From assembly GCA_902530685.1 (NCBI GenBank), contig CACAAZ010000007.1, positions 1 through 53,236 of the forward strand: 53,236 nt of DNA, written 5' to 3'. A program made the position numbers and the translations under genes. The stretch's first letter is position 1, and every line of letters begins with the position of its first letter. The stretch comes from an uncultured Alphaproteobacteria bacterium. GTDB lineage: Bacteria; Pseudomonadota; Alphaproteobacteria; HIMB59; GCA-002718135. Positions 2,605 through 3,983 of this stretch are shown piece by piece. The notes under the pieces are model-generated. The model did no database searches, had not been told where the DNA came from, and was given only the letters and a program-made list of their open reading frames with translations.

Positions 2605-3501
2605 ATGGATCAAAATAACGGGAATTTACTCGCTATACTTGGACCAACTAATACTGGTAAAACTCATTCAGCTTTTGAAAGATTATTCTCATACTCATCT
2701 GGAATATTTGGTTTTCCTCTAAGATTATTAGCTAGAGAAAATTATGATAAAGCAGTACACCAATATGGATTAAATTATATCGCCCTCATTACAGGTGAGG
2801 AAAAAATTGTTCCAAGAGAGGCAAAATATTTTTTTTGTACTGTTGAGTCAATGCCAACAGATAAACATGTAGACTGTGTAGTAATTGATGAAGTGCAACT
2901 TGCCGCTGATTATGAAAGAGGTCATGTTTTTACCGATAGAATTCTAAACTTAAGAGGTACATATGAAACAATTTTTTTAGGTTCATTGACAATTAAAACA
3001 ATATTAAAAAAATTATTTCCACAGATAAAAATTCAATATAAGGAACGTTTCTCAAACCTTTCATTTCTACCAAAACAGAATTTTTCTAAGTTAAAACCAA
3101 GATCGGCTATAATCGCATTTAATATTAATAAAGTTTACGAGATTGCTGAAAATATTAGAACTCATAAGGGTGGGGCAGCTGTTGTTTTAGGTTCATTAAG
3201 TCCAAGAACTAGAAATTCTCAAGTGCAAATTTATGAAAATAATAAAGTTGATTATTTAGTTGCAACTGATGCAATAGGCATGGGCTTAAACTTGAGCATA
3301 AATCATGTTTGTTTTACATCTTTAGAAAAGTTTGATGGAAGATACAGAAGAAATCTTACGTCTAGTGAAATAGGTCAAATAGCTGGTAGAGCAGGACGTT
3401 ATAAAGATAATGGCACATTTAGTTATACAAGAGATGCAGGAAATATGAATTTATTACATGATTTCTGCGAAAAATCAGAAATAAAATTAAAATTCATTTA
3501 A
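2605..3501 (+). CDS. Suv3-like RNA/DNA helicase core, unusually short (298 aa)
   Basis: GPTNTGKT Walker A, DEVQLAADYERGHVFTDRIL motif II, ATDAIGMGLNLSI and QIAGRAGRY motifs V/VI; stops just after motif VI. Confidence 0.85.
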   Translation: MDQNNGNLLAILGPTNTGKTHSAFERLFSYSSGIFGFPLRLLARENYDKAVHQYGLNYIALITGEEKIVPREAKYFFCTVESMPTDKHVDCVVIDEVQLAADYERGHVFTDRILNLRGTYETIFLGSLTIKTILKKLFPQIKIQYKERFSNLSFLPKQNFSKLKPRSAIIAFNINKVYEIAENIRTHKGGAAVVLGSLSPRTRNSQVQIYENNKVDYLVATDAIGMGLNLSINHVCFTSLEKFDGRYRRNLTSSEIGQIAGRAGRYKDNGTFSYTRDAGNMNLLHDFCEKSEIKLKFI

Positions 3502-3618
3502 AAAATAAAATTATTTTAAAATAAATAAAATGATAATTTTTTTAAGTTTATTTAATCAATGGTATATTGTTGACTTTAACCGTAAGTTTTGGGAATAAAA
3601 GTGCAGCCTTTTATTAAT

Positions 3619-3680
3619 ATCACTGTTTAGTGATTTTGGAGGGAGGTTCCTCCGGGGTAACAAAATACAAGGAGTATTTT
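3619..3680 (+). promoter_or_regulatory. structured 5' leader of Lys-rich protein (three candidate hairpins)
   Basis: ATCACT-gttt-AGTGAT (3619-3634); GGAGG (3638-3642) / CCTCC (3649-3653); AAAATAC-aagga-GTATTTT (3662-3680) with the ribosome-binding site in its loop. Confidence 0.5.
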
Positions 3681-3854
3681 ATGGCTAAGAAGAAAAAGAA
3701 AGCTGCTCCAAAGAAAAAGAAAAAAGCAGCTACTAAGAAAAAGAAAAAAGCAGCTCCAAAGAAAAAAAAGAAAAAAGCTGCTCCTAAGAAAAAGAAAAAA
3801 GCAGCACCTAAGAAAAAGAAAAAAGCTGCTAAGAAAAAGAAAAAGAAAAGATAG
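3681..3854 (+). CDS. Lys/Ala-rich repeat protein (histone H1-like / AlgP-like basic protein), 57 aa
   Basis: MAKKKKKAAPKKKKKAATKKKKKAAPKKKKKK...; imperfect AAPKKKKK repeats; AAGGAG RBS 7 nt upstream of ATG at 3681. Confidence 0.75.
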   Translation: MAKKKKKAAPKKKKKAATKKKKKAAPKKKKKKAAPKKKKKAAPKKKKKAAKKKKKKR

Positions 3855-3873
3855 TACAACTACATCTTTTCAC

Positions 3874-3900
3874 GAAAACTTTTTTATGAAGTTTTCTTTT
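3874..3900 (+). terminator. Rho-independent terminator candidate 1
   Basis: GAAAACTT-ttttatg-AAGTTTTC followed by TTTT. Confidence 0.5.
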
Positions 3901-3923
3901 TCTTATCTTTTTCCAAAAGATAA

Positions 3924-3947
3924 AACGGGGTACTGCCCCGTTTTTTT
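3924..3947 (+). terminator. Rho-independent terminator candidate 2
   Basis: ACGGGGtactgCCCCGT followed by T-run. Confidence 0.75.
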
Positions 3948-3983
3948 ATTGTTTTAATACCAAAAGTGACTAGATCATAAATA

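Follow-up and report, generated by a model that had tools for sequence, protein, structure and literature searches.

An established precedent for a structured leader that stabilises its own mRNA is the ompA-type 5' UTR (PMC2777011), and in Chlamydia the hctA mRNA, which encodes a histone-H1-like protein, is under post-transcriptional control by the sRNA IhtA (PMC3469542). For 'Cand. Pelagibacter ubique', leader motifs have been described upstream of rpsB, rpsL and ffh and, with less support, of pntA and bablM (Meyer et al., 2009, PMC2704228), and in the sources cited here it is from Pelagibacter that the cis-regulatory elements of such marine alphaproteobacteria come. The leader described below, which precedes a gene for a lysine-rich protein, is likewise a GC-richer structured leader located 5' of one gene in an AT-rich marine alphaproteobacterium, and it resembles the pntA and bablM motifs in its serial stems and strongly conserved sequence. 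However, it differs from the Pelagibacter motifs in gene, sequence and lineage, and none of those described in PMC2704228 precedes a lysine-rich gene. With the ompA-type UTR it shares stem-loops 5' of an exposed Shine-Dalgarno (SD) sequence, but the two have no sequence relation, and both the 5' placement and the stabilisation are putative here. Compared with the hctA system, in which the sRNA acts in trans, no such sRNA was found here and the leader is unrelated.

The window, i.e., the whole stretch of 53,236 nucleotides that was analysed, belongs to an abundant, streamlined lineage of the open ocean. The original prediction read the region in front of the lysine-rich gene as a translational switch of three hairpins. 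Reading of the window revealed all of the motifs that it named (hairpins 1 and 3, the GGAGG run, CCTCC and the ATG), with all coordinates correct. The ribosome-binding site (RBS) AAGGAG was rightly placed at hairpin 3 but wrongly at one nucleotide from the ATG, because it is the hairpin that adjoins the ATG, the SD being six bases away. The most conserved part, an upstream block at 3563-3614, was absent from the prediction. The features, all on the plus strand, are as follows:

3563..3568, plus strand: TATATT, a -10-like TANNNT hexamer that marks the abrupt 5' limit of conservation
3570..3595, plus strand: invariant block A, TTGACTTTANNCGTAAGTTTTGGGAA, holding the -35-like TTGACW; near-invariant (n = 60 homologues)
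3605..3614, plus strand: conserved block B, AGCCTTTTAT (alignments A1 and A2)
3619..3634, plus strand: hairpin 1, ATCACT-gttt-AGTGAT; the stem covaries and the loop length differs between homologues
3637..3654, plus strand: hairpin 2, T-GGAGG-GAGGTT-CCTCC-G; core pairs kept in all rows
3638-3646, plus strand: GGAGGGAGG run, seen in the window
3649-3653, plus strand: CCTCC, seen in the window
3662..3680, plus strand: hairpin 3, AAAATAC-aagga-GTATTTT, around the SD; limited to a single branch within the window's genus
3669..3674, plus strand: SD AAGGAG, invariant in all homologues and complementary to CACCTCCTT of the 16S rRNA
3681, plus strand: start codon ATG of the lysine-rich ORF, seen in the window
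3681..3854, plus strand: lysine-rich, histone-H1-like ORF MAKKKKKAAPKKKKK..., 57 aa, 67% K+R
3922..3944, plus strand: intrinsic terminator-like hairpin AAAACGGGG..CCCCGTTTT, 3' of the lysine-rich gene and 5' of ccmA

Lysine-rich homologues of 44-81 aa with about 57-67% K+R occupy the same position in the loci read in the window's family. The protein has no match in Pfam or NCBIfam, and literature searches on AEGEAN-169 with lysine-rich proteins and on histone-like proteins of SAR11 returned nothing specific. The number of AAPKKKKK repeats varies, giving 44-81 aa in the window's family and 67-144 aa in the sister family, and this size variation recalls that of chlamydial Hc2. The terminator-like hairpin at 3922-3944 is strong, which suggests that the gene is transcribed alone.

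Searching relatives at the DNA level turned up this leader in numerous genomes from the genus. Covariance model R1 matched 78 of the 162 genomes searched from the order (E-values down to 3e-23), and each of the six genera in the window's family (SAR11-clade-V type, MarineAlpha5 and related single-cell genomes) was represented, while the order-wide search with this model did not find it in the sister family f2. There is one match per genome, except for G127 with two, both close to contig ends, and the leader precedes the lysine-rich gene in every locus read. The sequences of hairpin 2 (GGAGGNRGGTTCCTCC) and block A are each restricted to a single locus per genome, with zero matches in the controls. 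In a class-wide scan of 385 alphaproteobacterial genomes, whose stricter filters could miss weak matches, no leader was found outside the genus. A pattern scan of named genomes obtained matches labelled MarineAlpha5, AG-series or Pelagibacteraceae and four isolated, unrelated records, which were taken as chance. A phage origin was rejected, as the viral contigs searched contained no match.

Conservation begins sharply at the TANNNT hexamer, the bases further upstream being variable. Among 14 divergent members, pairwise identity is 0.39 upstream of the leader, 0.82 from TATATT to AGCCTTTTAT, 0.73 from hairpin 1 to the ATG, 0.64 in the lysine-rich gene, 0.53 in the 3' gap and 0.64 in ccmA, so that the noncoding leader exceeds the adjoining ccmA coding DNA. 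Of 67 sequences, 93% carry the hexamer itself at this offset, mostly as TATATT, TAAATT, TATATC or TATAAT. Single-sequence folding gives three hairpins, but the folding energy is unexceptional (z = -1.4, with 19 of 200 shuffles equally stable); one sequence by itself is therefore not convincing, and it is the comparative data that lift the leader above chance. Judged by this comparison, the noncoding leader is genuine and strongly selected. A noncoding element that is better conserved than coding DNA and tied to one histone-like gene offers a handle on the control of nucleoid proteins.

It is scarcely conceivable that this conservation reflects protein coding, either as an in-frame N-terminal extension or as a leader peptide (GTG/ATG...EGGSSGVTKYKEYF-MAKKK). 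The frame is open in the window from GTG 3630 into the ORF, but it is interrupted by an in-frame TAA in L062, L064 and the L018-L023 group, by one-base deletions in L065-L067 and by a one-base insertion in L017, and L061 has no start. Furthermore, third codon positions are near-invariant inside the main group. With the frame broken across the family, a leader peptide was excluded.

Structural evidence is clearest for hairpin 1. In the alignment fitted to the structure, three of its five stem pairs have changed on both sides, and 99% of cells are paired among 59 distinct rows; in the unfitted alignment, where two rows are misplaced at the stem, only one-sided changes are seen. When each 5' arm was matched with its own 3' region rather than randomly reassigned, 334 pairs were obtained versus 324 +/- 2.3 (1/2000, uncorrected for phylogeny). 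In all 73 distinct homologues, the hairpin-1 segment beats mononucleotide shuffles (mean z = -4.3). The alignments thus indicate that hairpin 1 is maintained by compensatory changes. In hairpin 2 (GGAGG-NRGGUU-CCUCC), the five core pairs occur in every row, the sole change being A-U to G-U, and the closing pair varies between U-G and U-A. Its 3' arm and loop, GGTTCCTCC, are invariant to a degree that exceeds what a mere stem requires. Having almost no variation, hairpin 2 is consistent with the alignment but weakly tested by covariation.

Hairpin 3 behaves differently. The window forms it with a predicted probability of 0.95 (37 C), against about 0 in L018, L019, L061, L062, L064, L066 and L068; within the window's genus it is confined to the main branch, and it is lost in L018-L023 and in the other genera. 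Since it is broken in divergent members, hairpin 3 was rejected as a conserved RBS hairpin. Across homologues, the predicted hairpins fared unequally: the first covaries, the second is nearly invariant and the third breaks. Two further pairings were also considered. One, between GGGAA (block A) and UUCCU (hairpin 2), was rejected (median probability 0.0001); the other, between GCC of block B and GGC of codon 2, was proposed by RNAalifold and is not claimed here, both sides being invariant and coding-constrained, without covariation.

In the original prediction, CCUCC pairs by turns with two partners, GGAGG in hairpin 2 and GGAG in the RBS, thereby opening or closing translation. The complementary motifs are present in the window, and CCUCC is identical to the anti-SD core of the 16S rRNA, whose 3' end in this genome is GGTTGGATCACCTCCTT. 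However, partition functions for 73 homologues place CCUCC inside the hairpin 2 stem (median 0.99 at 37 C), with negligible pairing to the RBS over 20-37 C (median 0.0005, maximum 0.05 at 20 C). A few homologues (L002, L022) favour alternative long-range folds in silico, none of which is the CCUCC-RBS pairing. Because hairpin 3 is also unconserved and the sister-family leader lacks switch-like pairing, we consider such a switch very unlikely. No two near-isoenergetic, mutually exclusive and conserved folds were found; the anti-SD resemblance of CCTCC is literal, and the folding models do not support its use as a switch.

The riboswitch and the thermosensor proposed in the prediction did not gain support either. 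The leader contains two simple hairpins, and in a pseudoknot search that was not exhaustive no aptamer-like junction or pseudoknot was seen, nor was an alternative fold at the RBS; a metabolite riboswitch is unlikely on these models. The hairpin around the RBS, being lineage-specific and absent outside one branch, is unlikely to have a conserved part in temperature sensing or in RBS occlusion, and no conserved SD-containing hairpin was found. In 8 genomes, 7 of them at least 90% complete, the CsrA family (PF02599) was not found although controls were detected, and a CsrA/RsmA-regulated leader was excluded on account of the absent gene. A search with Rfam 15 returned only a tRNA at or above the gathering threshold in the window, and a permissive search of 3450-3960 gave nothing near threshold. 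The L20_leader match (28.8 vs 58.7 bits), which is terminator-like, and other weak matches lie downstream and were dismissed as chance similarity. What did stand is the broader proposal: the region is probably a cis-regulatory leader of the lysine-rich gene, being conserved, structured, specific to that gene and covarying in hairpin 1. On this sequence evidence, it is a candidate structured cis-regulatory 5' leader, specific to the family and so far without an entry in Rfam 15.

In the sister family, the lysine-rich gene, with AAGGAGGCTATAATGGC, was found in 17 of 24 genomes and lies divergent beside suv3 where the helicase was also located (e.g., G037 and G038). The DNA upstream of it carries TTGACW-N16-TAANNT in 17/17, followed by a tandem pair of AT-rich hairpins and then by the SD, AAGGAGG, which is unpaired; in L184, a divergent f2 member, four stem pairs show double compensatory changes. 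This leader is thus similar to that of the window's family in its syntenic lysine-rich gene, upstream TTGACW, two tandem hairpins and open SD, and TTGAC lies 102-105 bases from the end of the ATG, versus about 110 in the window's family. However, its hairpins are AT-rich without GGAGG/CCUCC, and no hairpin or block sequence is common to both. An order-wide layout with unlike hairpin sequences argues for a structural leader, and the two families make 'structure, not sequence' directly testable. Retention of the layout without the sequence also argues against a conserved SD/anti-SD trick. A further reading takes hairpin 2 as an SD and an anti-SD (GGAGG/CCUCC) held captive in one stem, which the free 30S subunit would open or to which it would dock. 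The invariant GGUU...CCUCC of hairpin 2 does resemble the 16S 3' end of the genome, GGUUGGAUCACCUCC, and if this reading were true, a nucleoid protein would be tuned to ribosome availability; we give it a slim chance. The f2 leader (L180-L196, e.g., L180:1411-1515) is itself highly conserved and resembles a second uncatalogued leader family.

TTGACW is a candidate -35 element by analogy with the f2 leader and with the region upstream of the window's tRNA-Gly, where TTGACT is also found. In the window's family (f1), no TANNNT occurs 16-18 bases 3' of TTGACW, i.e., no canonical -10 at the usual distance. Three -10 alternatives were compared, namely TATATT (TAWAWT) at 3563, TAAGTT within block A and TATNNT close to 3613, and none of them is decisive. 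All except the last would place both hairpins in the mRNA; a start at TATNNT near 3613 would leave hairpin 1 partly untranscribed, which counts against a structured leader. The whole could also be mainly a promoter and operator acting at the DNA level, with the hairpins as operator palindromes or bystanders. This agrees with the presence of TTGACW, the -35 of f2, in block A, the most invariant part, and with the sharp upstream edge at the TANNNT hexamer. In hairpin 1, however, the loop length varies while the arms covary, whereas an operator would have its half-sites at a fixed distance, and conservation continues through hairpin 2 up to the SD, so that a DNA-level element appears unlikely. 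As block A was found at this locus only and before no other gene, a widespread operator was rejected.

The reading that we prefer, though tentatively, is a two-part, family-specific, single-copy cis element, in which a promoter/operator-like block is followed by a constitutive structured 5' leader. The invariant block 3563-3614 would drive transcription of the lysine-rich gene, and in the mRNA the stem-loops 3619-3634 and 3637-3654 would be permanently formed, followed by a short single strand with a strong SD. GGAGG and CCUCC are the two arms of hairpin 2 instead of alternating switch halves. As in ompA-type UTRs, stem-loops precede an exposed SD, and the hairpins may act constitutively by guarding the 5' portion of the transcript against decay and by keeping the SD and the start codon out of base pairs. 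The outcome would be steady expression of a small, probably abundant nucleoid protein. We infer the transcription start and any effect of the leader on stability or translation; the leader probably sets the amount of lysine-rich protein made.

A purely structural role fails to explain the lack of variation, over six genera, in GGUUCCUCC (the loop and arm of hairpin 2) and in blocks A and B; this invariance suggests sequence-specific recognition and makes factor binding the main rival to the constitutive leader. By analogy with ribosomal-protein leaders and IhtA, a factor acting in trans may bind the leader and either repress the mRNA or protect it; it could be the lysine-rich protein itself, a different RNA-binding protein or an sRNA. 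The invariant parts would need such a reader, the gene product is a basic protein of nucleic-acid-binding type, and translation of the H1-like HctA is repressed by IhtA (PMC3469542). On the other hand, for block A and hairpin 2 neither a second copy nor a long complementary stretch was found on either strand of the genomes searched, no factor candidate was found, and the f2 leader has no common sequence. We regard a trans-acting factor as somewhat unlikely; feedback by the basic lysine-rich protein is possible.

In relatives, the lysine-rich ORF sits between the divergent acnA-suv3 and ccmA-ccmB. In the window, acnA-suv3 is inverted with respect to its orientation in relatives, in which acnA runs divergently from the leader, and the Suv3-type helicase at 2605-3501 has only 298 aa versus about 850 aa in relatives, homology stopping at 3456; the remainder of the helicase gene was not found in this incomplete genome. 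Either the DNA is truly inverted here, or single-cell amplification has produced a chimeric junction. Additionally, a conserved stretch, GAATTTATTA..TTTCTGCGAAAAAT, is present at 3434-3470 of the window and upstream of L002, L077 and L078, about 100 bases 5' of the leader. Located on the acnA side in relatives, it is possibly the promoter or operator of acnA.
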